Shown here: positions 2,726 to 63,836 of the stretch, piece after piece | Layout of the letters: the number at the start of each line of letters is the position of its first letter | Position numbering within the stretch: position 1 is the stretch's first letter | Assembly (NCBI GenBank): GCA_035771165.1 | Contig: JAWNZC010000232.1 | Span: forward strand, 1,790,001 to 1,854,000 | Source: Paragorgia papillata | Taxonomy: Eukaryota; Cnidaria; Anthozoa; Scleralcyonacea; Coralliidae | Length of the DNA stretch: 64,000 nt | Direction: 5' to 3' | The notes under the pieces: generated by a model | What the model was told of the DNA's origin: nothing | The model's input: only the letters and a program-made list of their open reading frames with translations | The model's database searches: none | Translations under genes and position numbers: made by a program

Positions 2726-3869
2726 GTCCCTGTCTACATGAAGCGGATTGAGTGTTCAAATCAAATCTCGCATGTTGTTTCTACTTGTTGTGTTTACATG
2801 AAGAAGATTGAAAGTTTTCGATCTGATCGAAACGAATGGCTGAAGTCAATCCACGCAGTGGAGTGGATTAACTTGAGATTCAAGCAAGGATCGACTTGAA
2901 TGTCTCCAATCTGATTCACCTGAACACAGTTTGACTTGAAAATGAGTTGATACGCATGAGTGAAGTTGGTGCGTGTCGTGCTAAATGGCAGATATTGAGG
3001 GAAGCACAGAAAATAGTGTTCCAAAACTGAAAACAATGTTCCAAGCAGATCGGATTCTCCATGTAAACATGTGCCCCGATTGACTTCACTCGCGTTTTTC
3101 GATCCGATTGGACTGTCCAGTGCTGGAAAATGTCCGGAAACTTTTTTGTAAAAGTTTTTCGCAGGAAATGTTTTGTATCTTGCAGGAAATATTTGTCAGT
3201 TTTTTTAATCCAAGTCAAAGTTTAAAGATAAATTTCCTATTCTTCAAAAAATCGAAAAGCGTCACGGTCACACAATCACACAATTTTGATGGGCATCACC
3301 CTTTGATCGAATATCGAGTTTCATATTCGATGACTCATCTTTCTATATTCTTGCCAAACCCATCGGCGATTTGTAAACAATTCGAAAGTGTTTTGAAGGT
3401 TTATTACATGACCTTAACCTGTCTAAGTTTCGTATATCCTTGCGCAAATGACGCAACGATTTGTTTTAGAAAACAATGAAATATTTATCATTTCAGTATA
3501 GTGTTGCTGTTGCAGGTTGCAGCTGTCATTGTGCATTTGCAAGAATGCAAGCTGCTTTTATCTTATTCAACTGTTTCAGCATTTCGATTTTTGACGCTAG
3601 TACTTGTATTACGTAGTATTCAATTGAAAAGTTCGCTATTTCAAAGTATGTATAGATACCACAATACCACATTCAGATAAATTATGGCTTTGAGATATAA
3701 ACTTGCAAGTCTGGTGATATCACAACTTATAAAAAAAATAAAAAATTCTATCAGGCAGGAAATCGTTAATTTAGTTTAGCAGGAAATATTTATTTGTGGA
3801 TTTTGCTGGCAGGAAGAAAAATGCTTTATCTAGGACTGGCACTGGCAATCCTCTTCATGTAAACAGGGC
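2726..3869. mobile_element. MITE with TTA target duplication
   Basis: The left end GTCCCTGTCTACATGAAG and right end CTTCATGTAAACAGGGC are inverted. TTA lies immediately outside both ends (2723-2725, 3870-3872), as in PIF/Harbinger-type insertions. The interior is AT-rich without a transposase. Confidence 0.65.
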
Positions 3870-4248
3870 TTAAATTTGATGGTGATTGGCTTTAGTGTAT
3901 ATACTAAAAGATGATTCTGTCATGATCTGTAGTTCTTACAAGCTTTTTTTCTATGCTTTGTTAGGTTTTAATAAGACATGTAATATATCAAACACGAGGA
4001 GGAGTGTTTCATCAGGATATCCAAACACCGAGACGTTTGTTGAAAACCGAGGCGAAGCCGAGGTTTTTGAACAAACTTCGAGTATTTTAAGAGAAAATCA
4101 AGATGAAAGTTTGCTTAATTTATGTAATTTCTTCCTCCGATATCCAAACCACCGACACGGTACAGATTTCTTTCGTGTTTTCTTCATGAATTATTATATA
4201 TGCAATGTTCTTTGAGCTGTTTATTACACAGAAAGATTTCTGAGGTCA

Positions 4249-5001
4249 TGTCCACACTAATCCAGTAGGGACTTTAAGATTCAGACAACGGATTACGGCT
4301 ACGGTAGAAAGTTTAACAGTGGTATTAAATGATGGTGCATTTATACATTCAAATTTGAAAATACATAATCGCACGGACTCGCCTTGTTCTTAAATTCTTG
4401 AAGAGATACACTTGTTCAATCTATGTTAGTCGCGAGAGTAATGTTAAGCTTTCCCAAGGCTTCTGTAGCGACTCAGGTTTCGCGTTGTCTTTACAACGTC
4501 AAAATGCTTTTTCTACGTTGTTAACAGAGCTACGACGGCATGAAAATTACTCTTGCGACCGTCATTTGCAAAAGCTCTTTGTATATGACATAAAATTCTA
4601 TTGTTCAAAGACGTTGCCGTAGTCCTTAGTCGTTGTGTTTTCTTAACGTCCCTAATATTTTCAAACGGAATCAAAACGTATCAAAAGTTTCCCGTCCACA
4701 CTATCGTTTTTGTATTGTTTTCACCATTTAGTAAAATGCTAAAAAGATCTACAGGGGTATGAATGAATAGTTCTAGCTGACAGACTGAAACCAAGATAAC
4801 ATAATCGTGACATCGTCGTTTTCCAAAAGCTTCGTTTTTGCCGTCCACACTGGTGCAGAAAAACGGCGTCTTCGGGTGTCCACTCTGGAGAGCGTTTTCG
4901 AAAATCTCCATTTTTGGTCACTGAAGACGCTGGATTAGTGTGGAGGAAAGGCCTAACCCTACCAAAAAGTCTCTCAACTTCGAAAACGGATTAGTGTGGA
5001 C
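4249..5001. mobile_element. MITE with GTCCACACTAATCC ends
   Basis: Inverted ends GTCCACACTAATCC (4250) and GGATTAGTGTGGAC (4988), with an extra internal copy near 4930. No transposase is seen, and the length suits a non-autonomous element. Confidence 0.55.
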
Positions 5002-7195: not shown

Positions 7196-7530
7196 CAGAG
7201 CCTGAAATAACGGCCGGCGGTCGGCTGTTTTCCGACCAAATTCCAGTTTTTCCGACCAAATGCTGAAATGATCGGAAATTTTGTCCGGACAAATTTTGAA
7301 AAAAAAAATAATCTGTTTTTTTAAATGATCGGGTCGGCGTTCAGCACAGTGAGTGCTATCTATAATCTTAGATTATCTATATTAGGCTTATATAGAGTAA
7401 TCAACTGGAATGAATACGGGCTCAATAATCAAGATGGCGGCGTGTAGTCGAGAAAATGTGAGGTGAGAGTAGATAACCCCCCCCCCCCCCATATAGCGGC
7501 ACAAAGGGATGCCGCCTCATTAAATATTCA

Positions 7531-7602
7531 GTGTGACGCCCGGTGTGACGTCCGGTGTGACGCCCGCTGTGATGCACGGTGTGATGCACGGTGTGACGCC
7601 GG
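7531..7602. repeat. GGTGTGACGCCC-type tandem repeat near the left terminus
   Basis: About six 11-12 bp units (GGTGTGACGCCC, GGTGTGACGTCC, GGTGTGATGCAC). The mirror copy is at about 17003-17075. Short tandem repeats close to the ends are common in Polinton inverted repeats. The array lies just upstream of the GRF gene and could affect its promoter. Confidence 0.7.
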
Positions 7603-7630
7603 AAGTAATTAGCAAACATAGAGTGGGTGA

Positions 7631-7636
7631 TATAAA
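7631..7636 (+). promoter_or_regulatory. Probable TATA box of the left-arm GRF gene
   Basis: TATAAA lies 58 bp upstream of the first in-frame ATG at 7694, which would give a short 5' leader. The mirror copy on the minus strand is at about 16970-16975. Assigned from motif and position only. Confidence 0.45.
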
Positions 7637-7693
7637 CCCAGGGTTACTTGAGTTGCTTCACTCGTGGCTCTGGTTAAGTACAACATCGTTACA

Positions 7694-8326
7694 ATGGAAT
7701 GTCTACATGGTGAATCTGCGTCTGTCTCAACAACAAGGAATGGCACCTTTTGGTTCTGTGGACAGAAACCTAGTTGTGAGTTCTTTTGCCCAGAAGAAGA
7801 TTGCTACATGTTTGGAAAAGCCGTAGCCTCCTTTCATGAAAGTGAATGTATACATCCAAGGTGCCATGGCCATGGACGACTAGCACAGATGCGAATGGTT
7901 AAAGATAAGATGAAGGAAAGTTACGGGAGACCATACTTTGTTTGCTCCGCACGAGGAAATCCCTGTTCGTTTTGGCAATGGGCTGATGTCTTCGAGGGTA
8001 TCAAACCAATATGTCGACATGGTCTGATTTGTCGTACTAGCAAAGTCAAGAAAGAAGGTCCTAATCAAGGTCGATTATTTTACTTGTGTCCCCACGAGAG
8101 AGAAAACTGCTGTGACTTTTTCGAATGGAAACCGGAAGAAGATCCCCTTGAACCATTTTCCACTGTTCTGTTTAGTATGCCACCATCTTACAGATATACA
8201 GTCAAAAAGACTGGAGAGACATTCACGAGCCATGAAACTGATCATAAGAAAGCCTACGAAGAGTACCTTTTTCAAAAGTCGGTAAATGACTTGACTATAG
8301 ACTTGGAAAAACTGAACATTTGCTGA
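7694..8326 (+). CDS. Triple GRF-type zinc finger protein (left arm)
   Basis: A 210 aa protein starting at the first ATG; the frame is open further upstream but without ATG. It has three successive Cys/His knuckles. Finger 1 uses C3, H5, C22, C28. Finger 2 uses C57, H60, C84, C91 and ends WQW (94-96). Finger 3 uses C107, H109, C132, C140, with a classic GPNQGRLFY stretch and CDFFEW end. GRF fingers bind single-stranded nucleic acid in topoisomerase III, NEIL3 and APE2; here a DNA-binding role in an element's replication or packaging is inferred. Residues about 153-210 form a tail with a KKAYEEYLF motif that recurs in the 148 aa protein at 10039. It is the outermost gene of the arm, reading inward. 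Both arm copies have the same length and no stop, so the gene is probably still under little decay. Confidence 0.85.
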   Translation: MECLHGESASVSTTRNGTFWFCGQKPSCEFFCPEEDCYMFGKAVASFHESECIHPRCHGHGRLAQMRMVKDKMKESYGRPYFVCSARGNPCSFWQWADVFEGIKPICRHGLICRTSKVKKEGPNQGRLFYLCPHERENCCDFFEWKPEEDPLEPFSTVLFSMPPSYRYTVKKTGETFTSHETDHKKAYEEYLFQKSVNDLTIDLEKLNIC

Positions 8327-8868
8327 ACATGTATAATTTTGTATTCTAATTATCTATCTAATAAATATATGTTTATACCTGACTTTTTTTTTTTTTTCGT
8401 GATTCATTTATCTCCAACTTTGGTTATAAATGTTGTGTTTTGTCTTATATAAGGCTAATAGTTGTTGAGCAATACGTTCCATTTTTTTGTTCGGAGGTAA
8501 ACCCTAGTTCATGAGCGAGGAAATTGTAGGAAGATAGAATGAGGAATCACTTCGAGAAGTCGTGAAAAGAACGATTTTAAGTGTCGAAATATGAACTAAA
8601 GGCAAAGCGATTTATTACTTTGAAAGCGTTGCTAGGTTAAATAATTCGTCGCTATGATTTAGTATGTTATAAGATTTTCGCACGTGCAGAACACAAAAGG
8701 GAAAAGTCATTAAAGTTACTAATGCCCAAAACATAACCAGATTTGCATATAAGTAGAATATTTAATTCATTTTAGGGGATGTCATGAGTTGTGTGTGGAT
8801 AACAAGGGGTATTAATGTGTGGGCATGTTCAGGCCAAAATATGATTAGCGGGGGCGTTACCATGGAGA
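8327..8868. other. Intergenic stretch of left arm
   Basis: Contains AATAAA at 8361 (polyadenylation candidate for the GRF gene) and a run of 14 T at 8384-8397. No ORF above 60 codons that I would support. The mirror is 15738-16278, where the run has 13 bases. Confidence 0.5.
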
Positions 8869-9081
8869 ATGTACAGCGTCGCGTCGTCTCATAAGGCAGA
8901 ATTCAAAGTATTCAGTTTAAAATATTTATTTCTTGGTCCAAAAAATCAAAGCATAGTCGAAAGTGTTATCGTATTTGAAGAAAACACAGTTAATCAACCT
9001 GTTGGAGACAGTCCTGTTGTTAGTTTGGCAAGCGAAGAGTGTGTAAATGATTCTAGCTTCCCCTTAACCGTAGCTGGATAG
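8869..9081 (+). CDS. Small hypothetical ORF, 70 aa (left arm)
   Basis: Starts with ATG in the sequence GAATGTAC. No family recognised. The segment GPKNQSIVESVIVFEENTV is mixed charged and hydrophobic, with no clear membrane span and no Cys/His pairs. An ATG seven bases upstream in another frame opens a short alternative frame. The mirror copy at 15525-15737 differs by one residue near the C terminus (Val to Leu). Could be the end of a spliced or decayed gene, or chance. Confidence 0.3.
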   Translation: MYSVASSHKAEFKVFSLKYLFLGPKNQSIVESVIVFEENTVNQPVGDSPVVSLASEECVNDSSFPLTVAG

Positions 9082-9202
9082 AGTAAATGATGTCAACAAT
9101 GAAGAAACCGTTCGGTAAGCTGTTCGAAAGATATTGAAACACTTTCTTTCAAAAGTTTGTATAAGCACTAATGTTTCTGTTTCGATTAAATGATTAACAT
9201 AT

Positions 9203-9436
9203 CTAAAACTGCTTAGTCTCTTCGTATAACATATCCTTTGACTGTTCGAATATCCACTGGATATAAGCCTCGGGAAATCGTACTAGCGTAGATTCTCTTC
9301 TTTTCCTTCTTTTCTCCAGTTGCATATTAGCATAAATTGTTAACCAATATGATATTTTATCGTTACGATAAGAGCACCGTTTTTCAAATGTCTGCTTTTC
9401 ATTCAGACACCAAGGCTCTATCACTTTGTGTTCACT
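9203..9436 (-). pseudogene. Downstream half of an interrupted small ORF (left arm)
   Basis: A 77-codon open stretch continuing in the same reading frame as the ORF at 9437-9613, separated from it only by a TAA codon. It has no ATG at its beginning (first open codons AGT, then GTG), so it is unlikely to be an independent gene. It is rich in basic residues (LEKRRKRRE) and ends ETKQF. Read together with the upstream part it would form one continuous frame of about 135 codons from the first ATG, interrupted once. The same stop is present in the right arm. Family not recognised. Confidence 0.45.
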
Positions 9437-9613
9437 TTATATGACCATTTTCTGTAGTGTCTTTCTTTTCTTTAGTTTTAAGAGTGTATATGCTCGAAGT
9501 AATTGTGTGTTTAAATCTTCGTCCCTGCGGTTTTCTATAAGCTGATGATCCCGTAGGTAAATTCGAAGGTTTATCGCTCGTCTCCATTCTTTATTTTCTT
9601 CTTCACTCATCAT
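9437..9613 (-). CDS. Small charged ORF, 58 aa, ends at shared TAA (left arm)
   Basis: From the first ATG (MMSEEENKEWRR) this is a 58 aa highly charged, probably helical protein. The frame is open 32 codons further upstream through a hydrophobic segment, but without ATG; an upstream exon is possible. It stops at TAA (9437-9439), after which the frame stays open for another 77 codons. Family unknown. Same structure in the right arm (14993-15169). Confidence 0.4.
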   Translation of the reverse strand: MMSEEENKEWRRAINLRIYLRDHQLIENRRDEDLNTQLLRAYTLLKLKKRKTLQKMVI

Positions 9614-9709
9614 GAAGAAAAACACCGCAACAACTAAACCTTTGTTGACAACAAGCAGTAACCATTGATTACTAATACTTAGATTGAGGAGATGTCTTCG
9701 AAAGTTCAA

Positions 9710-10038
9710 AATCGTTGTGTAAACACGGAACGGTTTGCCGTACTCGTAAAGTCAATCGAGAAGTCGCGAGTATGAGGAATTGAATCGAGAAACTGTAAGA
9801 GCTTAAGGTACAGACGAAATATTATTTGTCTATAGAATGGCTGAGTGTAATGTTTAAGTCCATGTACACTATTGGTGTTAATGACTCATTAGCAATTTAA
9901 ACAAAAGAACGTGTCTGCGCGAGTTTGGGCGACGTCAGAGCTTAGACAAAGAAATCCTAATTAATATGCTTATTCACGGCGTCGGTTTTCTCGGCGTATC
10001 ATTTGCTTGCTATTTGCTGTTGGAGTAAGACCGCAGAG
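9710..10038. other. Divergent promoter region of left arm
   Basis: Gap of about 430 bp between the minus-strand small ORF and the plus-strand Cys/His gene, so it probably holds two divergent promoters. An AT-rich ATTAATATG lies at about 9960. No clear TATA box. Mirror 14568-14896. Confidence 0.35.
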
Positions 10039-10485
10039 ATGGAGGGTTTATATGAAAAATTGTTTTCAATGTTCGAAGCTATTTACAATGAAACTTTGTG
10101 GGAAGAATATTCGAAGCTTTGTCATGAAAAATGCTACGGTTGTAGGACTAGCCATCCTAGTCAGAAACAACACAGTTGCCTAACAGATGATGAGCAATGG
10201 AGATCGTGCTACGAAGAGACCAGGACAAACGTCGACGAACGTATCTGGATAGAGTTCAACGAAGCGATGCAGGCGTTGAAATTACGAAACCAAACAGACA
10301 ATAATAAATACTCTCAAGACGCTACAGAGACAGTGGTTGTGCCGGTGGAAATTGACGACTCGCCAAATATTCTTTCTATATCTGTTCTGTTTAGCTGTCC
10401 ATTAAAGTATCTGTACCAAGTAAAAGACACTGGTGTAAAATTTACGAGTACGATAAAGAATCCTCTGGAGGCTTACGAGGAGTAA
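10039..10485 (+). CDS. Cys/His-rich HPSQ-motif protein with GRF-protein-like tail (left arm)
   Basis: A 148 aa protein from the first ATG (the frame is open upstream from a TTG). An N-terminal helical segment is followed by a metal-binding-like cluster: C28-x3-C32-x2-C35-x3-H39-P-S-Q-x2-H45-x-C47. The last 40 residues (LFSCPLKYLYQVKDTG ... EAYEE) match the tail of the GRF protein at 7694 (LFSMPPSYRYTVKKTG ... KAYEEYLFQKS). The TAA stop sits exactly where the GRF protein has Tyr, and the next 17 codons stay in frame and still resemble that tail. The stop is therefore probably a nonsense change, shared by both arms. Function unknown; the cluster suggests nucleic-acid or protein binding. Confidence 0.7.
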   Translation: MEGLYEKLFSMFEAIYNETLWEEYSKLCHEKCYGCRTSHPSQKQHSCLTDDEQWRSCYEETRTNVDERIWIEFNEAMQALKLRNQTDNNKYSQDATETVVVPVEIDDSPNILSISVLFSCPLKYLYQVKDTGVKFTSTIKNPLEAYEE

Positions 10486-10539
10486 CTTCTTGAAAAGTCT
10501 AGAAACTTAACGACGAAAAGCAATCTGAACTATATGTGA

Positions 10540-11235
10540 ACTAGTGCTATATGTGTTATAAGAACATTATCGAGTTAATCCAAAGTTAAATTATGTTTTA
10601 AGTTAAATCAAATTTCTTGGACTATTTAGTGTGTAAGAAAGATGTGTAATTTTATATATGTTAAATTTTATCTGAAGAGAAATTAATAAAAACATATGAG
10701 CAACATTATAATAGTTCTTTGTAGTTTATTTTTATATTATAACAAATTACAGTGTACATATTGACAGCTAATTATTTACATAAACAAATGTTTTTAAATA
10801 AACTGTCCTGCGTTTACCGTTTCTTCTAGCGCACCCACTTCTTATAGATAATGTTTGTTTCTCTGTTTTGCATAATATAACTCGACAAGACCCTTTATAC
10901 GAGAGTTGATAAGCGGTAACTTATACATTTAACATGTACCAAAGGAATATCAGAAAGACATACGCATTATTTGTAAATACTTTATTTAAATTCAGCATAG
11001 TACAGAAGATAATGTTTCAACGATTCAACAGCAACTTTAATTCTTATAATTGGTGTCATTCCAATACTAGGGCGTTTAGGTTGATTGTAGGAATACACTA
11101 GTTTTTTGTAATAATGGTTTCTTTCGTTTGATGAAATCTAAACATATATTCAAAATGCACAGTCCTATATAGCCTTTAATAAACCATTATCAGTATGTCT
11201 CAATGTCGCTTTTCTCAGGTATTCAGCACTTATTC
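10540..11235. other. Convergent 3' region of left arm
   Basis: AT-rich, about 700 bp, between the convergent HPSQ-motif and ATPase genes. AATAAA at about 10685 suits the plus-strand gene. Several of the arm-to-arm differences cluster in 10535-10660. No gene seen. Confidence 0.45.
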
Positions 11236-12048
11236 TTATACCCTGGGTTGATATACATAATGTGTATCAGTCGGAAATATCCCGGATCTTACTCGGATTT
11301 CATCGGGACATGTCGGCGTGAGATCGACAAACAGGTAAGAATATGGCTCTTTGGTTGCCATCTGGTAGGCTTGCTGGAAAAACTTTGTGTTGTCGGGATA
11401 CAACTGTTTGGCAAGATGAGTCACTTGACTTGCATCACGAACATTTTTTGTTAGGACAAAGTAACTAGCGTTGAGAGAGATGGTACGATGGTCTTTGCTT
11501 TGATGAAACAAATTTTGCACAATATAAATCACGCTGAGATTACCATGATGGGATTTCTTCGTGAACAGTTTGGCAATAATCGTATCTTTTTCACCCATCA
11601 TATCATCAATGATAAATAGATTTCTTATTTGGGGATTAATACTATCCAATATAAATTCGGATAAACCTTGCACAAACTGAATCCCAGGAATAAGAAGTTC
11701 CATTTTAGCAAACGTGTCTTGGTACTCAGAATAAAAATAAATTATATTTTCTGGGACAGGGTCGATCATGATTTGGGCGTTGGCTAATAATTCCTTGACA
11801 AAGGTTGTCTTCCCAGTCTTGGTCCCTCCAGAGACCAAGAGTCCAAAGGGATGTGTTAATTGTATGGAGTATGTCTTTTTGTTGTCTTGGTAATTCGATG
11901 CGTTTCCATCAAATGGAGAATACTTAAATGTAGAATCAGTAGACATCGTTTGTATTGGCCGATCTCCCCCATGCAGGACCTTTACGTGACGTTGTAAATT
12001 AAACTGTCTTGAAAAGCTCTTTCCGCAAATATTACAAGCGCTAGGCAT
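11236..12048 (-). CDS. C2H2-finger fused to A32-like/FtsK-HerA packaging-type ATPase (left arm)
   Basis: A 270 aa protein from the first ATG. Residues 5-26 form a C2H2 finger (C5, C8, H21, H26; spacing CX2CX12HX4H). A P-loop NTPase follows: Walker A GGTKTGKTT at 74-82, Walker B NLFIIDD at 143-149, and a sensor-like IVQNLFHQ with Gln near 178. The later RTISLN and LTKNVRD blocks are typical of DNA-packaging ATPases of the poxvirus A32/Polinton type as I know them. Such ATPases drive genome packaging into capsids. The finger could tether it to DNA; a finger in this position is not something I know as standard. The gene starts next to the palindrome centre and reads outward. The right-arm copy differs by one residue (Gln/Leu in the KFFxQAY segment). 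Complete and uninterrupted in both arms. Confidence 0.82.
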   Translation of the reverse strand: MPSACNICGKSFSRQFNLQRHVKVLHGGDRPIQTMSTDSTFKYSPFDGNASNYQDNKKTYSIQLTHPFGLLVSGGTKTGKTTFVKELLANAQIMIDPVPENIIYFYSEYQDTFAKMELLIPGIQFVQGLSEFILDSINPQIRNLFIIDDMMGEKDTIIAKLFTKKSHHGNLSVIYIVQNLFHQSKDHRTISLNASYFVLTKNVRDASQVTHLAKQLYPDNTKFFQQAYQMATKEPYSYLFVDLTPTCPDEIRVRSGIFPTDTHYVYQPRV

Positions 12049-12210
12049 GTTCACACAACAACTCTCAAACTACTTGTGAAAATTAATGTGAGAAAAGTAA
12101 GATTATATCCTTGGGTTTCTTCTCTAATGCATGTGGGGATACCAAAACGAACCAAGGCGCATGCATAGCTGGACGTCACTTGGACGTTACGTAGACGCCG
12201 CCTCCAAGGG

Positions 12211-12395
12211 ATTAACTCATGAGTAACTCGTGAGTAAATGAGTAACTACTCATGAGTAACTCATGAGTTACTCATTTACTCACGAGTTACTCATGAGTAA
12301 CTCATGAGTTACTCATTTACTCACGAGTTGCTCATTTACTCATGAGTAACTCGCGAGTTACTCACGAGTTACTCATGAGTTACTCATGAGTTAAT
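12211..12395. repeat. Centre of palindrome: array of short self-complementary units
   Basis: About 185 bp made almost wholly of ACTCATGAGTAACT, ACTCACGAGT and CATTTACTC units in both orientations. The large inverted symmetry holds only to about 12230 and from about 12376; the middle is not symmetric as a whole. The short palindromic words can form hairpins. It lies between the two divergent ATPase genes and so also holds both their promoters. Confidence 0.8.
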
Positions 12396-12557
12396 CCCTT
12401 GGAGGCGGCGTCTACGTAACGTCCAAGTGACGTCCAGCTATGCATGCGCCTTGGTTCGTTTTGGTATCCCCACATGCATTAGAGAAGAAACCCAAGGATA
12501 TAATCTTACTTTTCTCACATTAATTTTCACAAGTAGTTTGAGAGTTGTTGTGTGAAC

Positions 12558-13370
12558 ATGCCTAGCGCTTGTAATATTTGCGGAAAGAGCTTTTCAAGAC
12601 AGTTTAATTTACAACGTCACGTAAAGGTCCTGCATGGGGGAGATCGGCCAATACAAACGATGTCTACTGATTCTACATTTAAGTATTCTCCATTTGATGG
12701 AAACGCATCGAATTACCAAGACAACAAAAAGACATACTCCATACAATTAACACATCCCTTTGGACTCTTGGTCTCTGGAGGGACCAAGACTGGGAAGACA
12801 ACCTTTGTCAAGGAATTATTAGCCAACGCCCAAATCATGATCGACCCTGTCCCAGAAAATATAATTTATTTTTATTCTGAGTACCAAGACACGTTTGCCA
12901 AAATGGAACTTCTTATTCCTGGGATTCAGTTTGTGCAAGGTTTATCCGAATTTATATTGGATAGTATTAATCCCCAAATAAGAAATCTATTTATCATTGA
13001 TGATATGATGGGTGAAAAAGATACGATTATTGCCAAACTGTTCACGAAGAAATCCCATCATGGTAATCTCAGCGTGATTTATATTGTGCAAAATTTGTTT
13101 CATCAAAGCAAAGACCATCGTACCATCTCTCTCAACGCTAGTTACTTTGTCCTAACAAAAAATGTTCGTGATGCAAGTCAAGTGACTCATCTTGCCAAAC
13201 AGTTGTATCCCGACAACACAAAGTTTTTCCTGCAAGCCTACCAGATGGCAACCAAAGAGCCATATTCTTACCTGTTTGTCGATCTCACGCCGACATGTCC
13301 CGATGAAATCCGAGTAAGATCCGGGATATTTCCGACTGATACACATTATGTATATCAACCCAGGGTATAA
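12558..13370 (+). CDS. C2H2-finger/packaging-type ATPase (right arm)
   Basis: Mirror copy of 11236-12048, with the same length, finger (C5, C8, H21, H26), Walker A (74-82) and Walker B (143-149). The one protein difference I find is Leu for Gln in the KFFxQAYQMATKEPY segment near the C terminus; it does not touch a catalytic motif. The two ATPase genes diverge from the repeat array at the centre. Confidence 0.82.
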   Translation: MPSACNICGKSFSRQFNLQRHVKVLHGGDRPIQTMSTDSTFKYSPFDGNASNYQDNKKTYSIQLTHPFGLLVSGGTKTGKTTFVKELLANAQIMIDPVPENIIYFYSEYQDTFAKMELLIPGIQFVQGLSEFILDSINPQIRNLFIIDDMMGEKDTIIAKLFTKKSHHGNLSVIYIVQNLFHQSKDHRTISLNASYFVLTKNVRDASQVTHLAKQLYPDNTKFFLQAYQMATKEPYSYLFVDLTPTCPDEIRVRSGIFPTDTHYVYQPRV

Positions 13371-14120
13371 GAATAAGTGCTGAATACCTGAGAAAAGCGA
13401 CATTGAGACATACTGATAATGGTTTATTAAAGGCTATATAGGACTGTGCATTTTGAATATATGTTTAGATTTCATCAAACGAAAGAAACCATTATTACAA
13501 AAAACTAGTGTATTCCTACAATCAACCTAAACGCCCTAGTATTGGAATGACACCAATTATAAGAATTAAAGTTGCTGTTGAATCGTTGAAACATTATCTT
13601 CTGTACTATGCTGAATTTAAATAAAGTATTTACAAATAATGCGTATGTCTTTCTGATATTCCTTTGGTACATGTTAAATGTATAAGTTACCGCTTATCAA
13701 CTCTCGTATAAAGGGTCTTGTCGAGTTATATTATGCAAAACAGAGAAACAAACATTATCTATAAGAAGTGGGTGCGCTAGAAGAAACGGTAAACGCAGGA
13801 CAGTTTATTTAAAAACATTTGTTTATGTAAATAATTAGCTGTCAATATGTACACTGTAATTTGTTATAATATAAAAATAAACTACAAAGAACTATTATAA
13901 TGTTGCTCATATGTTTTTATTAATTTCTCTTCAGATAAAATTTCACATATATAAAATTACACATCTTTCTTACACACTAAATAGTCCAAGAAATTTTATT
14001 TAACTTAAAACATAATTTAACTTTTGATTAACTCGATAATGTTCTTATAACACATATAGCATTAGTTCACATATAGTTCAGATTGCTTTTCGTCGTTAAG
14101 TTTCTAGACTTTTCAAGAAG
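13371..14120. other. Convergent 3' region of right arm
   Basis: Mirror of 10486-11235. Contains AATAAA-like words for both flanking genes and several single-base differences from the left arm. No gene. Confidence 0.45.
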
Positions 14121-14567
14121 TTACTCCTCGTAAGCCTCCCGAGGATTCTTTATCGTACTCGTAAATTTTACACCAGTGTCTTTTACTTGGTACAGATACT
14201 TTAATGGACAGCTAAACAGAACAGATATAGAAAGAATATTTGGCGAGTCGTCAATTTCCACCGGCACAACCACTGTCTCTGTAGCGTCTTGAGAGTATTT
14301 ATTATTGTCTCTTTGGTTTCGTAATTTCAACGCCTGCATCGCTTCGTTGAACTCTATCCAGATACGTTCGTCGACGTTTGTCCTGGTCTCTTCGTAGCAC
14401 GATCTCCATTGCTCATCATCTGTTAGGCAACTGTGTTGTTTCTGACTAGGATGGCTAGTCCTACAACCGTAGCATTTTTCATGACAAAGCTTCGAATATT
14501 CTTCCCACAAAGTTTCATTGTAAATAGCTTCGAACATTGAAAACAATTTTTCATATAAACCCTCCAT
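14121..14567 (-). CDS. Cys/His-rich HPSQ-motif protein (right arm)
   Basis: Mirror copy of 10039-10485, with identical Cys/His cluster and identical TAA stop. Two residue changes relative to the left arm: Arg for Thr in the QxDNNKYS segment and Arg for Leu in NPxEAYEE. The frame after the stop again stays open and resembles the GRF-protein tail. Confidence 0.7.
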   Translation of the reverse strand: MEGLYEKLFSMFEAIYNETLWEEYSKLCHEKCYGCRTSHPSQKQHSCLTDDEQWRSCYEETRTNVDERIWIEFNEAMQALKLRNQRDNNKYSQDATETVVVPVEIDDSPNILSISVLFSCPLKYLYQVKDTGVKFTSTIKNPREAYEE

Positions 14568-14992
14568 CTCTGCGGTCTTACTCCAACAGCAAATAGCAAG
14601 CAAATGATACGCCGAGAAAACCGACGCCGTGAATAAGCATATTAATTAGGATTTCTTTGTCTAAGCTCTGACGTCGCCCAAACTCGCGCAGACACGTTCT
14701 TTTGTTTAAATTGCTAATGAGTCATTAACACCAATAGTGTACATGGACTTAAACATTACACTCAGCCATTCTATAGACAAATAATATTTCGTCTGTACCT
14801 TACGCTCTTACAGTTTCTCGATTCAATTCCTCATACTCGCGACTTCTCGATTGACTTTACGAGTACGGCAAACCGTTCCGTGTTTACACAACGATTTTGA
14901 ACTTTCGAAGACATCTCCTCAATCTAAGTATTAGTAATCAATGGTTACTGCTTGTTGTCAACAAAGGTTTAGTTGTTGCGGTGTTTTTCTTC

Positions 14993-15169
14993 ATGATGAG
15001 TGAAGAAGAAAATAAAGAATGGAGACGAGCGATAAACCTTCGAATTTACCTACGGGATCATCAGCTTATAGAAAACCGCAGGGACGAAGATTTAAACACA
15101 CAATTACTTCGAGCATATACACTCTTAAAACTAAAGAAAAGAAAGACACTACAGAAAATGGTCATATAA
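14993..15169 (+). CDS. Small charged ORF, 58 aa (right arm)
   Basis: Mirror copy of 9437-9613 with the same protein and the same TAA at the end. See that entry for the interrupted-frame argument. Confidence 0.4.
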   Translation: MMSEEENKEWRRAINLRIYLRDHQLIENRRDEDLNTQLLRAYTLLKLKKRKTLQKMVI

Positions 15170-15403
15170 AGTGAAGACAAAGTGATAGAGCCTTGGTGTC
15201 TGAATGAAAAGCAGACATTTGAAAAACGGTGCTCTTATCGTAACGATAAAATATCATATTGGTTAACAATTTATGCTAATATGCAACTGGAGAAAAGAAG
15301 GAAAAGAAGAGAATCTACGCTAGTACGATTTCCCGAGGCTTATATCCAGTGGATATTCGAACAGTCAAAGGATATGTTATACGAAGAGACTAAGCAGTTT
15401 TAG
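15170..15403 (+). pseudogene. Downstream half of interrupted small ORF (right arm)
   Basis: Mirror copy of 9203-9436. It begins directly after the TAA in the same frame, again without ATG. One base differs from the left arm just after the stop. Confidence 0.45.
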
Positions 15404-15524
15404 ATATGTTAATCATTTAATCGAAACAGAAACATTAGTGCTTATACAAACTTTTGAAAGAAAGTGTTTCAATATCTTTCGAACAGCTTACCGAACGGTT
15501 TCTTCATTGTTGGCATCATTTACT

Positions 15525-15737
15525 CTATCCAGCTAAGGTTAAGGGGAAGCTAGAATCATTTACACACTCTTCGCTTGCCAAACTAACAACAGGACTGTCT
15601 CCAACAGGTTGATTAACTGTGTTTTCTTCAAATACGATAACACTTTCGACTATGCTTTGATTTTTTGGACCAAGAAATAAATATTTTAAACTGAATACTT
15701 TGAATTCTGCCTTATGAGACGACGCGACGCTGTACAT
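15525..15737 (-). CDS. Small hypothetical ORF, 70 aa (right arm)
   Basis: Mirror copy of 8869-9081 with one residue changed (Leu for Val, third from the end). No recognised domain. Confidence 0.3.
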   Translation of the reverse strand: MYSVASSHKAEFKVFSLKYLFLGPKNQSIVESVIVFEENTVNQPVGDSPVVSLASEECVNDSSFPLTLAG

Positions 15738-16278
15738 TCTCCATGGTAACGCCCCCGCTAATCATATTTTGGCCTGAACATGCCCACACATTAATACCCC
15801 TTGTTATCCACACACAACTCATGACATCCCCTAAAATGAATTAAATATTCTACTTATATGCAAATCTGGTTATGTTTTGGGCATTAGTAACTTTAATGAC
15901 TTTTCCCTTTTGTGTTCTGCACGTGCGAAAATCTTATAACATACTAAATCATAGCGACGAATTATTTAACCTAGCAACGCTTTCAAAGTAATAAATCGCT
16001 TTGCCTTTAGTTCATATTTCGACACTTAAAATCGTTCTTTTCACGACTTCTCGAAGTGATTCCTCATTCTATCTTCCTACAATTTCCTCGCTCATGAACT
16101 AGGGTTTACCTCCGAACAAAAAAATGGAACGTATTGCTCAACAACTATTAGCCTTATATAAGACAAAACACAACATTTATAACCAAAGTTGGAGATAAAT
16201 GAATCACGAAAAAAAAAAAAAGTCAGGTATAAACATATATTTATTAGATAGATAATTAGAATACAAAATTATACATGT

Positions 16279-16911
16279 TCAGCAAATGTTCAGTTTTTCC
16301 AAGTCTATAGTCAAGTCATTTACCGACTTTTGAAAAAGGTACTCTTCGTAGGCTTTCTTATGATCAGTTTCATGGCTCGTGAATGTCTCTCCAGTCTTTT
16401 TGACTGTATATCTGTAAGATGGTGGCATACTAAACAGAACAGTGGAAAATGGTTCAAGGGGATCTTCTTCCGGTTTCCATTCGAAAAAGTCACAGCAGTT
16501 TTCTCTCTCGTGGGGACACAAGTAAAATAATCGACCTTGATTAGGACCTTCTTTCTTGACTTTGCTAGTACGACAAATCAGACCATGTCGACATATTGGT
16601 TTGATACCCTCGAAGACATCAGCCCATTGCCAAAACGAACAGGGATTTCCTCGTGCGGAGCAAACAAAGTATGGTCTCCCGTAACTTTCCTTCATCTTAT
16701 CTTTAACCATTCGCATCTGTGCTAGTCGTCCATGGCCATGGCACCTTGGATGTATACATTCACTTTCATGAAAGGAGGCTACGGCTTTTCCAAACATGTA
16801 GCAATCTTCTTCTGGGCAAAAGAACTCACAACTAGGTTTCTGTCCACAGAACCAAAAGGTGCCATTCCTTGTTGTTGAGACAGACGCAGATTCACCATGT
16901 AGACATTCCAT
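16279..16911 (-). CDS. Triple GRF-type zinc finger protein (right arm)
   Basis: Mirror copy of 7694-8326, with the same 210 aa and the same three fingers (C3/H5/C22/C28, C57/H60/C84/C91, C107/H109/C132/C140) and tail. I found no residue difference from the left copy. Mirror TATA box at about 16970-16975. Confidence 0.85.
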   Translation of the reverse strand: MECLHGESASVSTTRNGTFWFCGQKPSCEFFCPEEDCYMFGKAVASFHESECIHPRCHGHGRLAQMRMVKDKMKESYGRPYFVCSARGNPCSFWQWADVFEGIKPICRHGLICRTSKVKKEGPNQGRLFYLCPHERENCCDFFEWKPEEDPLEPFSTVLFSMPPSYRYTVKKTGETFTSHETDHKKAYEEYLFQKSVNDLTIDLEKLNIC

Positions 16912-17141
16912 TGTAACGATGTTGTACTTAACCAGAGCCACGAGTGAAGCAACTCAAGTAACCCTGGGTTTATATCACCCACTCTATGTTTGCTAATTAC
17001 TTCCGGGCGTCACACCGTGCATCACACCGTGCATCACAGCGGGCGTCACACCGGACGTCACACCGGGCGTCACACTGAATATTTAATGAGGCGGCATCCC
17101 TTTGTGCCGCTATATGGGGGGGGGGGTTATCTACTGGTGAG

Positions 17142-28267: not shown

Positions 28268-29135
28268 TGTGTGGTGGTGATGGTGATGATGGTGGTGATC
28301 ATGGTGGTGATGATGATGGTGATGATGGTGGTGGTTGTAGTGGTGATGGTGGTGGTGTGGTGGTGATGATGATGGTGGTGGTGATGATGGTGATGGTGTT
28401 GGTGATAATGGTGGTGATGGTGGTGGTTATGATGGTGATGGTGTTGGTGATGATGATGGTGGTGATGATGATGATGGTGGTGATGATGATGATGGTGGTG
28501 GTTGTAGTAGTGATGGTAGTGATAGTGATGGTGATGATGGTAGTGATATGATGGTGGTAGTGGTGGTGATGACAGTGGTGATGGTGGTGGTGATGATGGT
28601 GATGGTGTTGGTGATAATGGTGGTGATGGTGGTGGTGATGATGGTGATGGTGTTGGTGATGGTGGTGGTGATGATGGTGGTTGTTGTGATGATGATGGTG
28701 GTGATTATGGTGGTGGTGACGGTGGTGATGATGATGGTGGTGATGGTGATAATGTGCTGGTGATGGTGGTGGCGATGGTGGTTGTGATGCTAGTGGTGAT
28801 GATGGTAATGGTAATGATAACGTTAATGGTTATGATGGTGGTGGAAGTGATGATGATGGTGGTGGTGATGATGATGCTGGTGATGGTGGTAGTGATGGTG
28901 GTAGTGATGAAGATGGTGGTGGTGATGATGGTGGTGATGATGGTGGTGATGATGGTGGTGATGATGGTGGTGATGATGGTGGTGATGATGGTGGTGATGA
29001 TGGTGGTGGTGATGGTGGTGATGATGATGGTGGTGATGATGGTGGTGAAGATGGTGGTGATGATGGTGGTGATGATGGTGGTGATGATGGTGGTGATGAT
29101 GGTGGTGATGGTGATGGTCATGGTGATGGTGATTA
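28268..29135. repeat. TGATGG/TGG minisatellite
   Basis: About 870 bp of GGTGATGAT and GGTGGTGATGG units on the + strand, with almost no C on that strand. All long frames in it are low-complexity artefacts. It ends just before the acceptor of the first candidate TBC exon. Confidence 0.9.
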
Positions 29136-29159
29136 ACATTTTTTTTTTGTTATTTATAG

Positions 29160-30920
<1,761 letters not shown>

Positions 30921-41223: not shown

Positions 41224-43755
41224 CTAAACACGAAAGACGTTGAACTTCCATCTTTCAACATGACAGAATGCCTTTCTTACTTCACCAATACTCTCGCTGC
41301 AATTCATCCTAACAAACTGTTTAACATTCCCAAGTGGATTCCTAGCTTATCTAATCCTGAAGTTCAATTTGACCTTGACCCTCCATCATATCAACAAGTC
41401 ATAAATATAATCCGTAAAATGAAAGCTTCTGGTTCTCCGTGTCCCCTTGATTAGCTCTCCATAATATGTTTTAAACGTTGTCCTTTCCTTAGAACATATT
41501 TAACTGACCTAATACGTGCTGTTTGGTTGTCCGGAACCATTCCTTCTGAGTGGAAAAAAGCTTGCACAATTCTTATTCACAAGAAAGGCGAGGCTAATAT
41601 ACCATCCATTTTCCGACCCATCACACTGGAAAGCATACCATTAAAAGTGTTTACTTCCTGTCTACGTAACGCAATGTACTCATTCCTCACCACTAATAAC
41701 TTTATAGAACATAATATACAGAAGGGCTTTACTCCTAACATGCCTGGTACTCTAGAACACACTGCACAAATGGCTAATATTATTAACAAAGCCCGGATCA
41801 AACAACGCTCTCTTCTCATCACTCTACTTGACCTGAAAAATGCCTTTGGCGAAGTTCATCACAATTTAATTCAATCCGTCCTTCATTGCCACCATATCCC
41901 TGAGCATATAACATTTGTTATAAAAAGTCTATACACGGATTTCCATACCTCAATAATTACACCTGAATTCTGTACTCCGTTCATATTTGTTAGCCGTGGC
42001 GTTCTGCAAGGCGATTGTCTCAGTCCTCTGCTGTTTAATATGTGTTTTAACACTTTTATTCAGCATATCAAAGCCGAGAAGTATCGTCAATTTGGTTTCT
42101 CCTTTCAGTTTTTAAATCCTATCCACTGGTTTCAGTTTGCTGATGACGCTGCTGTTATAAGTAGTGAAGAATCAGAAAACCAACATCTTTTGAACCGCTT
42201 TTCTATTTGGTGCCAATGGTCCAACATGATTATACGGATTGATAAGTGTAGTACTTTTGGCATTAAAAAAGCTGTAACAAAATCCATCCAATATCTACCG
42301 AAACTCCTCATTAATACTCAACTAATTCCAGCGACCAAAATTGGCGAGCATTTTCAATATTTAGGAAGATACTTTGATTTCAATATGTCCGATCAACAAC
42401 ATAAGTCTGAACTTACCTCCCTCATTGACGAACTAATGACTGATATTGATTCCAAGCCACTACATCCAAAAAATAAAATCCTCTTGTACAGTCGCTATGT
42501 TTTATCCAAAATATCCTGGCATTTTACTGTTACTACTTTATCAAAAACTTGGATTACAGAGAACATTGATTCTATAGCGAACAGTTATATTCGTAAATGG
42601 CTTGAAATACCGGTGTCAGGAACATTTAGTACTGTCTACCTAACTATAAACAAATTTGGTTTTATATTTGTCCTCCATCTGTCATATTCACCCAATGCCA
42701 AGCAGTTCTCCGTACAACTCTTAAAACATCTCCAAACCAAGCAATCACTGAACTCTGGAAGTCAACTAGTAACAGCACATGTATCCAGTATGATGTCTAT
42801 AACTCCACCAAGCAAGTTCTTAAGGACTTTCGCTCTGGACAAGAAGATAGACTTCATAACCATTTAACCTGTCAGGGATCCTTTTTCTCCAATATTACTA
42901 AGTTCTCCTTTCCCCAGCTTACAAAAATATGGTGTGCGTCTCAGTCCAACCTCCCGAAAAATATTTTTAATTTTACAATGAGATATATGAATAACTCTCT
43001 TCCCACGCGCAAAACCTTGCAAGATGGGGTGTATCACCAACTTCAGATTGTTCTCTTTGTCTGGCTCCAGAAACTCTTCTTCACGTAGTGGCAGGTTGCC
43101 AGTCGTACCTGGAACGATTTACATGGAGACACGACTCTATCTTGAACTTTCTCGCAACGACCCTACAGACCGTAAGTGGTTCAAGTCTTTATGTTGATCT
43201 TCCAGGTTATAAAAGTCCATCCATAATAACTGGTGACACATACCGTCCAGACTTGCTCCTATCAACTCCAAGTGGATGCCTCTACATTGTTGAACTGACT
43301 GTTGGTTTTGAGTCAAATCTTCAAAACAACGTCGATCGTAAAAAATCCAAATATTCAGAATCGATAAGGTCAGTCAAAGTGAACAATTCAGATCAGTTAA
43401 ATTTGTAAACCTATCGGTTAGCTGCCTTGGTGTCTTTGCAGCAGAATGTTCTACATTCATAGAAATGCTGAATGATCTTAGTCTTGACAAGACTCACCAA
43501 AAATATTGTATTAATAGAATGACGACGATCGCAATCAGAACCACCTATTACATATTCTGTTGCCGAAATAAGGAATGGACAAATCCTGAACTGCTAACTT
43601 TTTAAAATTATTGTACTGTATATTTGTTTTATGTTGTTATATATAGTTATTAGTTATATATTGTTAGTGTTGATTCAAGTAGCCGATTGTAAATTACCTT
43701 AAATAAGCGAGATTTGCAATTGTATATTATCTAAAAAGACATTTAATAAAGTTTC

Positions 43756-44273: not shown

Positions 44274-45140
44274 AATGATGATGATGATAATAATGATGAT
44301 GTGGATAATGATGATAAAGATGATGATAATGGTGATGATAGTGATGATGATAACGGTGATGATAATAATAATAATTATGATGATGATAATGATAATGGTG
44401 ATGATAATAATACGGATGATAATGATGATGATGATTATAATAATGATGATGATAATGATGATACTGAAGATAATGATACTAATGGTAATGATGATGATGA
44501 TAATAATAATGATGATAATAATGGTGATGATTATTATAGTAATAATAATGATGATGATAATAATAATAATAAAAATGATGATTATGATGATAATAATAAT
44601 AATATTGATGGTAATGATAATGGTGATGATAATGATACTAATGGTAATGATAATGATGATGATGATGATGATAATAATAATAATGATGATGATGATGATG
44701 ATAATAATAATGATGATGATGATAATGATAATGATGATAATAATGATAATGATGAAGATAATGATAATAATAATGATGATGGTGATGATAATGATAATGA
44801 TGATGATGATGATGATAATGATAATGATGATGATGATGATAATAATAATGATGATGATGATCATGATGATACTACTGCTACTACTAATAATGATAATAAT
44901 AATGGTGATGGTAACGATACTAATGATAATGATGATGATGATAATGAAAATGATAATGATGATGATGATAATGATAATGATGATAATGATACTGATGATA
45001 ATGATGGTAATAATGATGATAATGATAATAATGATAATAATGATGATGATGATAATAATGATAATGATAATGGTGATGACAATGCTAATGGTTATGATAA
45101 TGATAATGATGTTAATGATATTGATGATGTTGCTAATGGT
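44274..45140. repeat. GAT/AAT minisatellite
   Basis: About 870 bp of GATGAT, AATGAT and GATAAT units. The three long frames through it (Met/Ile-, Asp/Asn- and Ile-rich) are low-complexity artefacts. Confidence 0.9.
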
Positions 45141-47371: not shown

Positions 47372-48240
47372 CTAAATCTATTAATGATCTTCCAAATTGT
47401 TTAGATAAATCTGTCCCGGCCATGTATGCCGACGATACAAATATAACTACAAGCGGAGAGACTATTAATGAGTTAGAAGATAAGTTAAATTGCGAATTGA
47501 ATAAAGTTCACAATTGGCTTCTTGTTAATAAACTAACAGTTAATGTCGGTAAAACGGAATACATGATAATTGGCACACGGCAAAGATTATCACGTAACAA
47601 CCATGACCCAAAAATTCAAATAGGAGGAATAGATTTAAAACGGGTCTCGGTTACAAAGAGTTTAGGGATTCTAGTTGATGAAAATTTAAACTGGAATCAA
47701 CAAATAGACAACATCAGCAAAAAAGTTTCAAAGGGAATTGGAATTTTAAGACGCGTGAAACAATATATTTCACGGCAGTCTTTACAGACAATATACCAAT
47801 CGCTAATTTTACCTCATTTTGATTATTGCTCTATGGTTTGGGGGAATTGCAACCAATCATTAAAAAACAAGTTGCAAAAACTCCAAAACAGAGCTGCTAG
47901 AGTAATAACAGGGGACACATATGATGTTCGTTCATATGAAATATTAGCCAACTTAGGATGGAAAACTTTAGAAGAAAGAAGAGAGGAACGAATTACATCC
48001 TATGTAAGCAAGGCTTTAAACAATAATTGTCCTCCAAATATTACATCTATGTTCGAAATTTCGAATAATACTAACTATAACCTAAGAAGTAATAACAATA
48101 TGCTGATGTTGTCTAAACCAAAAACCAATGCTATGAAGAGAAGTTTTGGCTACGCTGCGGCTAAAATCTGGAACAAACTCCCTAGTTTGACAAAGAAAAA
48201 TGTTTTAGAAAAATGTAATTAGCAGCAACTTGAAAACACC
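47372..48240 (+). mobile_element. CR1/jockey-group LINE, 5'-truncated RT fragment
   Basis: An open frame of about 280 codons starting inside the reverse transcriptase: INDLPNCLDKSV then the catalytic YADDT, followed by thumb and C-terminal conserved blocks SLGILVDENLNWNQQID, ILPHFDYCSMVWGNC and LQNRAARVITG. It ends after FGYAAAKIWNKLP. No intact upstream part, endonuclease or ORF1. The truncation and the lack of internal stops suggest a fairly recent but dead insertion. Confidence 0.8.
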
Positions 48241-50829: not shown

Positions 50830-51475
50830 TTCTGTGAAACAAGTTTCAGTATCAAAATCACTTGGTGTAAAAATTGACCAGAATATGACCTGGGAAAACC
50901 ACGTTAATGTGATGTCTAAGAAAATTGCATCTGGGATTAGTGCAATAAAACGCATTAGGTATTTTGTTCCTCGTGAAACACTCCTAACTGTTTACAATGC
51001 ATTAGTACAACCTCATTTTAACTATTGTAATGTGGTTTGGAGAAACTGTAACAAAGGCCTTTCTCAAATACTTCAAAAACTCCAAAATCGTGCTGCTCGT
51101 ATAATTACGTTCTCAAGTTACGATACTAGTACAAACGAACTTTTCCATTCGTTGAAATGGAACAAATTAGATCACAAGCGTAAAGTTGAGAAATCAATTT
51201 TAATGTACAAAGCTCTGAACGCTCAAACACCAGAATATTTGAGCTCTAGATTTATCAATCGAACGGACATTACGTCTTATAACTTGAGAAATGTAGAAAA
51301 CAGGCTAGCAGTTCCTCTTCCGCGTACTGACTACTATAAACGAAGTTTCAGTTACAGTGGAGCGGTACTGTGGAATGGCTTACCATCAAACCTAAGACAA
51401 GCTCCTTCACTGGCAAACTTTAAGAAACAAATTAGTTCCAACACTTTTCAGAGTTACTAATTCTCATATTGCACG
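50830..51475 (+). mobile_element. LINE RT C-terminal fragment, second family
   Basis: An open frame of about 208 codons with the same C-terminal blocks as the fragment at 47372 (SLGVKIDQNMTWENHV, VQPHFNYCNVVW, LQNRAARIIT, SGAVLWNGLPSNL), but diverged. It begins after the polymerase active site, so it is severely 5'-truncated. The 3' untranslated end reads GGGTAAATAAAGTTC and passes straight into a TTCTC repeat. Confidence 0.8.

Positions 51476-53773: not shown

Positions 53774-63836
<10,063 letters not shown>

Follow-up and report, generated by a model that had tools for sequence, protein, structure and literature searches.

Phage satellites such as P4 and the phage-inducible chromosomal islands (PICIs) depend on a helper, have a packaging gene of their own and carry ends compatible with those of the helper, and defective palindromes of the adenovirus type are self-complementary, contain one viral end twice and need helper functions. 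Among eukaryotic elements, Polintons (also called Mavericks or polintoviruses) encode capsid and packaging genes; according to the accessible part of PMC8097293, particles had not been observed as of 2021, and the end motifs of vertebrate Polintons are (AG)3 and (AGT)2. Here, we analysed a palindromic, Polinton-type element in a 64-kb stretch of DNA from the cnidarian Paragorgia papillata (contig JAWNZC010000232.1, positions 1,790,001 to 1,854,000; the whole stretch is hereafter called the window). Elements of this structure are present at many head-to-head loci with distinct, exact 6-bp duplications. They have the ends of Polintons that bear PolB and integrase genes, possess no such genes of their own, and their two arms evolve together. 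At a probability of roughly 0.6, we interpret the window element as one inserted copy from an established family of Polinton derivatives that are non-autonomous and palindromic throughout, act as satellites of co-resident Polintons, are replicated and integrated in trans and keep their own packaging ATPase.

The palindrome and its copies in the genome

The whole element (7468..17135, 9,668 bp, unstranded) is a palindrome with the termini AGTAGATAACC...GGTTATCTACT. Its inverted arms comprise 3,903, 798 and 121 nt with 99-100% complementarity, and outside the central array they differ by 12 substitutions and a few homopolymer bases; given this length, chance is ruled out as the source of the palindrome. 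The central array (12215..12393, unstranded), which is the loop of the palindrome, consists of 11-bp units built on self-complementary ACTCATGAGT. As single-stranded DNA, the array folds at -86 kcal/mol (z -21), compared with a mean of -18.8 in 200 shuffles. The target-site duplication GGTGAG is exact at the left (7462..7467) and right (17136..17141) borders, both unstranded, and the match extends no further. The initial annotation had described a 9,668-bp palindrome with AG...CT ends and an exact GGTGAG repeat, and this description was confirmed. A 12-bp minisatellite, GTGTGACGCCCG, lies within the terminal repeat on the left (7531..7600, plus strand) and on the right (17003..17075, minus strand).

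We searched the 618-Mb genome for copies. The outer 0.94 kb of the arm was matched at no fewer than 33 loci (40 of 1,728 first-look candidates scored) and the inner 2.56 kb at no fewer than 24 loci (40 of 1,616 candidates scored), 16 of these 24 being inverted pairs, plus then minus. The inverted pair at C258 has a wider gap between the arms, as if interrupted. C150 and C382, two of the eight unpaired inner-module loci, were palindromic on inspection, C215 is paired through its ATPase, and head-to-head ATPase pairs were found at six more loci (C22, C77, C158, C72, C132 and C130; 40 of 682 candidates scored). At least 25 palindromic loci thus have the head-to-head layout, which for most of them rests on paired search matches. 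Exact 6-bp duplications were found in all five palindromes with both ends read, and each is different (GGTGAG in the window, GTTGTT in C449, GTCGGC in C289, CACAAC in C320 and AATAGC in C382), as the initial annotation had anticipated for an element present at several loci. Long-read fold-back artefacts are known (PMC12870357, in its accessible part), and a palindrome might in principle be such a fold-back read in the library or assembly. However, the exact duplication between two flanks, the non-identical arms and the presence at 25 or more loci leave this a practically negligible explanation.

Two of the copies show further peculiarities. At C320 (88701-89180), the left palindrome end is bordered on its outside by a further Polinton-type end, which is inverted relative to it and includes fragments of arm positions 1031-1173. 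In a palindrome on C91 (541047-542764), the centre is partly lost, and the array occupies the position at which the right ATPase should have its first 326 nt.

Palindromes might also have been formed repeatedly and independently from an unseen, non-palindromic progenitor with a single arm. Such a history would yield sister arms in each element without homogenisation, and an element of a related kind, C405, has a GRF end at each terminus and one ATPase within a unique centre (see below). However, 19 of the 24 inner-module loci are palindromic and C463 is a palindrome that breaks off shortly after the array, the other four (C452, C285, C171 and C140) being unassigned to either layout. No single-arm element was identified among these 24 loci, although one may be missed with 40 of 1,616 candidates scored. 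In addition, the array is central in the window element, C449, C289, C320, C91, C150, C382 and C91b, and it lies at the inner end of C463. Repeated formation from a single-arm progenitor is unlikely in view of this layout.

Relation to co-resident Polintons

Four longer Polintons of the same genome were read. C87 (1872886-1886067) has open reading frames (ORFs) for PolB (PF03175, 1.7e-32; frame of at least 1,074 codons, with continuity over a sequence-piece border assumed), an ATPase, a protease-like protein (African swine fever virus protease S273R, 6.2e-5), an integrase, a chromodomain and a GRF protein, together with a 448-codon ORF that is taken as a capsid protein candidate by size and place only. 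The GRF ORF is at the end opposite PolB, and the integrase, capsid-candidate and protease-like genes lie between the GRF and ATPase genes. The other three, C473 (1807588-1820802), C84 (281070-294154) and C65 (1042394-1057123), match the C87 PolB, integrase, protease-like and 448-codon genes. Some of the matches are split, which points to frame breaks in the integrase, protease-like and ATPase genes of C473, the PolB, integrase and ATPase genes of C84, and the PolB and protease-like genes of C65. All four Polintons have exact 6-bp duplications, and their short terminal repeats span about 160-207 bp in those measured.

The GRF-gene end is common to the window palindrome and all four of these Polintons; the Polinton end reads AGTAGGTAAC and the window end AGTAGATAAC, one base apart. 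Relatives with PolB and integrase that share the end, which the initial annotation had suggested looking for, are therefore present, and its assignment of the element to the Polinton type holds, given the AGTAG ends, the 6-bp duplications and this common end. The terminal inverted repeats start with AG and read AGTAGGTAACC in most of the other elements read. The stretch after the C-tract differs between elements (ATATAGCGGCACAAAGG in the window, ATACGGACCAAAGG in C87) and is alike at both ends in most of those read, as if origin specificity were co-inherited. C211 (742930-759101) is an exception with two different stretches at its ends. This 16-kb composite element has two different Polinton ends, the left one nearest to C449, C405 and C87 and the right one separated from C65 by 2 differences over about 0.8 kb, and it has the exact 6-bp duplication CAGAAG, nested inverted repeats and a match to the integrase over its full length.

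The palindrome contains no ORF for PolB, and tblastn with the N-terminal part of the C87 PolB was empty across the 64-kb window. The RVE integrase of C87 had no tblastn match in the window, C449 or C289, and no relative of the C87 protease-like ORF or of the 448-codon ORF was found by tblastn in the window. The absence of polymerase and integrase stated in the initial annotation was thus borne out, and the integration in trans that it proposed is probable, given the missing genes and the multi-copy family.

Comparison with the four Polintons showed that the arm is a mosaic. Terminal repeats aside, only positions 1-957 and 3766-4404 of the arm align, and in C84 and C65 the alignment of the outer module consists of 223-957 plus shorter end pieces. 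The outer module, comprising the terminal repeat and the GRF gene (7468..8424, plus strand; mirrored at 16181..17135, minus strand, with an approximate inner border), extends over 0.96 kb and is about 95-97% identical to Polintons (C87, C473). The approximately 2.8 kb between this module and the ATPase was found in none of the four Polintons. The synonymous divergence (dS) of the GRF gene between C87 and five palindromes was 0.007-0.018. In contrast, the ATPase has a dS of about 1.02 and a nonsynonymous divergence (dN) of about 0.055 to C87, and a dS of about 0.90 to C65. Residues 62-272 of the window ATPase have 90% amino acid identity to the C87 ATPase, and the tblastn match to Polintons spans the same residues, with the finger unmatched. 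Because the GRF dS to C87 is about 0.01 and the ATPase dS about 1, the outer module apparently passed between satellite and helper not long ago, and the ATPase lineage seems to have been separate for long.

These results bear on the origin proposed in the initial annotation, namely a defective genome produced by snap-back copying of one complete Polinton end and then integrated in trans. Part of that proposal stands, in that the same GRF end is present at both termini, the centre is self-complementary, and the inward GRF gene and outward ATPase gene match the GRF half of C87. However, the arm is not colinear with the Polinton end: the integrase, capsid-candidate and protease-like genes are missing between GRF and ATPase, DNA unrelated to the Polintons read is found there, and the dS to the same Polinton is about 1 for the ATPase and about 0.01 for the GRF gene. 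The dS contrast and the non-colinear arm led us to reject simple snap-back copying of any Polinton end that was read. Furthermore, the palindromes are a family with diverged subclades and not a one-off product. Judged against the four Polintons read, a snap-back copy of a complete Polinton end is a very unlikely origin.

A second kind of element shares part of the arm. C405 (173271-180441) has a GRF end at both termini, 2.1-kb arms and a unique centre with a single ATPase. Its own finger-ATPase is about 40% identical to that of the palindromes, and no match to the C87 PolB, integrase, protease-like or 448-codon genes was found in it. Another element, at C473 1009324-1020343, seems to belong with C405 and to be interrupted by a transposon-like insertion, and it retains fragments of an integrase gene; at 1015780-1018367 it contains transposase-like ORFs that were judged by eye to be hAT-like. 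A 301-bp module of the arm (8631..8931, plus strand; mirror copy 15675..15975, minus strand) is 95-97% identical between the palindromes and the second kind, and a comparison at E 1e-10 detected it in none of the four Polintons. Genome-wide, the module forms at least 12 inverted pairs, all plus then minus, and is unpaired at 16 or more further loci (40 of 1,054 candidates scored).

Joint evolution of the two arms

We compared the inner arm, about 2.5 kb, of 13 palindromes. The arms of one element have 0-28 differences, compared with an average of 46-76 to other elements, and 12 of the 13 palindromes have their two arms as sisters in the tree (support 0.68-1.0; C91 without a value). The left-right distances sum to 108, compared with a mean of 671 on random re-pairing, and none of 20,000 re-pairings was as low. 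Private changes present in both arms numbered 85 and sites differing between arms 108, and one arm difference was common to two elements. Frame-breaking changes are also found at the same place in both arms, namely the loss of 29 nt from the ATPase of C89, changes affecting ORF160 in C405b and C234 and ORF73 in C367, and the ORF160 stop of the window (for these ORFs, see below). CpG decay accounted for 8 of 105 arm-specific and 7 of 85 arm-shared changes and did not separate the two classes. Given this sister placement in all but one palindrome and the frame-breaking changes found in both arms, the arms were probably made alike again while the elements were mobile. The most economical explanation would be that both arms are templated by one of them in the mobile phase and that this ceases after insertion.

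Ordinary host gene conversion, which would equalise the arms after insertion as in other chromosomal palindromes, predicts sister arms too, and it fits the copies whose inner arms have 0-2 differences (C91, C229 and C289). However, other copies drift: C67 has 28 arm differences and ATPase breaks that differ between its arms, and C89 has 22 arm differences alongside the deletion shared by both arms. We consider equalisation by the host improbable on these grounds.

Genes of the arm and selection on the ATPase

Each arm contains a GRF zinc-ribbon ORF, ORFs of 70, 73, 90 and 160 codons and a 272-codon finger-ATPase ORF; five ORFs of the window element were scanned for Pfam domains. The finger-ATPase (11236..12054, minus strand; mirror copy 12552..13370, plus strand, with one amino acid different, Q/L) has 272 aa as listed from GTG, the first ATG being two codons on. 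It combines a C2H2 finger (zf-C2H2, 4.9e-7) with an A32-like packaging ATPase (Pox_A32, 2.8e-4; 20.9 bits, slightly below the curated cut-off of 22.8), and many of its homologues carry the PF04665 annotation. Viral contigs scanned with the ATPase sequence and with its alignment contained no relative, and phage records gave no match.

Selection on the ATPase was tested by comparing the left arms of C400, C234, C91b and C367 with the right arm of the window, a single shared reference, so that the four comparisons are not independent. Synonymous and nonsynonymous changes were 20/10, 21/9, 28/14 and 12/8, respectively, and the ratios of nonsynonymous to synonymous differences per site (pN/pS) were 0.14, 0.12, 0.14 and 0.19 (Fisher p 1.5e-7, 1.9e-8, 3.3e-10 and 2.7e-4). 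Outside this test were the broken ATPases of C67 (20/19) and C89 (11/10), the too close ones of C229 (2/3) and C405b (1/3), and, in C91b, the right arm, which had no match over its first 326 nt. Diverged palindromes thus show purifying selection on the ATPase. When six diverged left arms were pooled, pN/pS was 1.14 for ORF160, 2.05 for ORF73, 0.67 for ORF90 and 0.15 for ORF70 (p 6e-4).

The GRF zinc-ribbon ORF (7664..8326, plus strand; mirror copy 16279..16941, minus strand) has 220 aa as listed from GTG (PF06839, 2.3e-21). ORF70 lies at 8869..9081 on the plus strand (mirror copy 15525..15737, minus strand). Constraint was not apparent for ORF73 (9203..9424, minus strand; mirror copy 15182..15403, plus strand), and no clear constraint was apparent for ORF90 (9437..9709, minus strand; mirror copy 14897..15169, plus strand). 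ORF160 (10003..10485, plus strand) and its mirror copy (14121..14603, minus strand) have the same stop, which is present in both window arms and absent at that place from the other aligned copies. The C-termini of ORF160 and the GRF ORF are 53% alike over 34 aa, which suggests an old duplication within the arm. Elsewhere in the window, reverse-transcriptase-like ORFs of non-LTR (long terminal repeat) retrotransposons were recognised by eye at 41527-42867, 58688-59932, 47422-48222 and 50834-51460, and long simple-sequence tracts lie at 28271-30565 and 44275-45129.

Discussion

The palindrome shows the features of a satellite, in that its replication and integration genes are missing while a co-resident helper has the same ends, and its own ATPase gene is kept by selection. 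Helper Polintons would replicate and package the palindromes. Specifically, the protein-primed polymerase of the helper would start at the shared terminal repeats, which are present at both palindrome ends, and the displaced strand could fold on itself into a 4.8-kb hairpin with the self-complementary array as its loop. The arms would then be equalised in the mobile phase, either by mismatch repair in the hairpin or because the growing strand snaps back at the loop, and the helper integrase would insert the product with a 6-bp duplication. The finger-fused ATPase may be retained because it aids in moving the satellite's own DNA into helper capsids. A wider proposal, which we put forward tentatively as possible rather than probable, is that these elements are the first Polinton satellites, fully palindromic, with hairpin-style arm renewal, helper-type ends, a satellite-specific 301-bp cis module common to a second satellite kind, and a finger-ATPase that would steer helper capsids to satellite DNA.

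Several observations weigh against the satellite interpretation. Dependence on a helper is deduced from the missing genes. The arms of C320 are not sisters, C320 and C89 tie by distance with another element's arm, and in C229 the two ATPases carry different 1-nt insertions, yet the inner arms show zero differences. Among close palindromes, no constraint was seen for the ATPase in 11 comparisons (0-2 synonymous vs 1-4 nonsynonymous) or for the GRF ORF. The ATPase frames of both arms are broken in three of eight further palindromes (C67, C89 and C229), the right ATPase of C91b is without its normal first 326 nt, and C382 shows ATPase breaks; an intact ATPase of its own is thus not required in every cycle. 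The structure model of the ATPase is of modest confidence (predicted local distance difference test, pLDDT, 71.6), and a fold search with it returned nothing at E <= 0.001; the weak, mixed matches include P-loop folds and the packaging NTPase B204 of Sulfolobus turreted icosahedral virus 2 (STIV2) and were not used as proof. Moreover, the finger-ATPase of the second kind has widespread relatives (1,801 matches). A finger-fused ATPase had also been considered as a mark of satellites, which is weakened by these relatives, three of them listed from Oculina patagonica.

Alternatively, the ATPase could be a passenger without a packaging role, the family then consisting of ordinary non-autonomous transposons whose inverted repeats are very long. 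Broken ATPases, such as those with the C89 deletion in both arms, did not stop the elements from moving, and constraint is not visible among close copies. However, the low pN/pS of the ATPase between diverged palindromes (0.12-0.19), compared with the values for ORF73, ORF90 and ORF160, argues against a passenger, and we regard this alternative as doubtful, though with a real chance of being right. Under the satellite interpretation, a multi-copy parasite that retains only shared ends and a selected packaging motor is indirect evidence for Polinton packaging. If the wider proposal is true, the virus nature of Polintons becomes testable; a packaging thief implies real capsids. The palindromes may also provide a clock, in which changes in both arms date the mobile phase and changes in one arm the time since insertion.

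Palindromic or satellite Polintons with their own packaging ATPase were undescribed among the titles and abstract beginnings listed, a scope outside which most subscription papers and all bioRxiv preprints fall. Foldback/Galileo-type transposons resemble the palindrome in their very long inverted arms with internal repeats; they differ in that Galileo has a P-element-like transposase (both from the accessible part of PMC3573991), whereas the ends, 6-bp duplication and genes of the palindrome are of the Polinton type. Snap-back satellite genomes of adeno-associated virus (AAV) are likewise self-complementary, carry one viral end twice and are helper-dependent (PMC8235507, in its accessible part). 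However, palindromes of the AAV and adenovirus type come from one parent genome, whereas the present family has a mosaic arm, a long-separate ATPase and a family tree of its own. The resemblance to P4 and PICIs is functional, without kinship; the Polinton palindromes are eukaryotic, and redirection of packaging in them is conjectural. Polintons themselves share with the palindrome the AGTAG-type inverted-repeat ends, 6-bp duplications, an A32/FtsK-type packaging ATPase and the outer 0.96 kb. The palindrome differs from them in having no PolB, integrase, protease-like or capsid-candidate gene, in being an inverted repeat over its full length, and in having its own interior and a finger fused to the ATPase. 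Because of its ends, duplications and ATPase, the palindrome is placed among Polinton derivatives.

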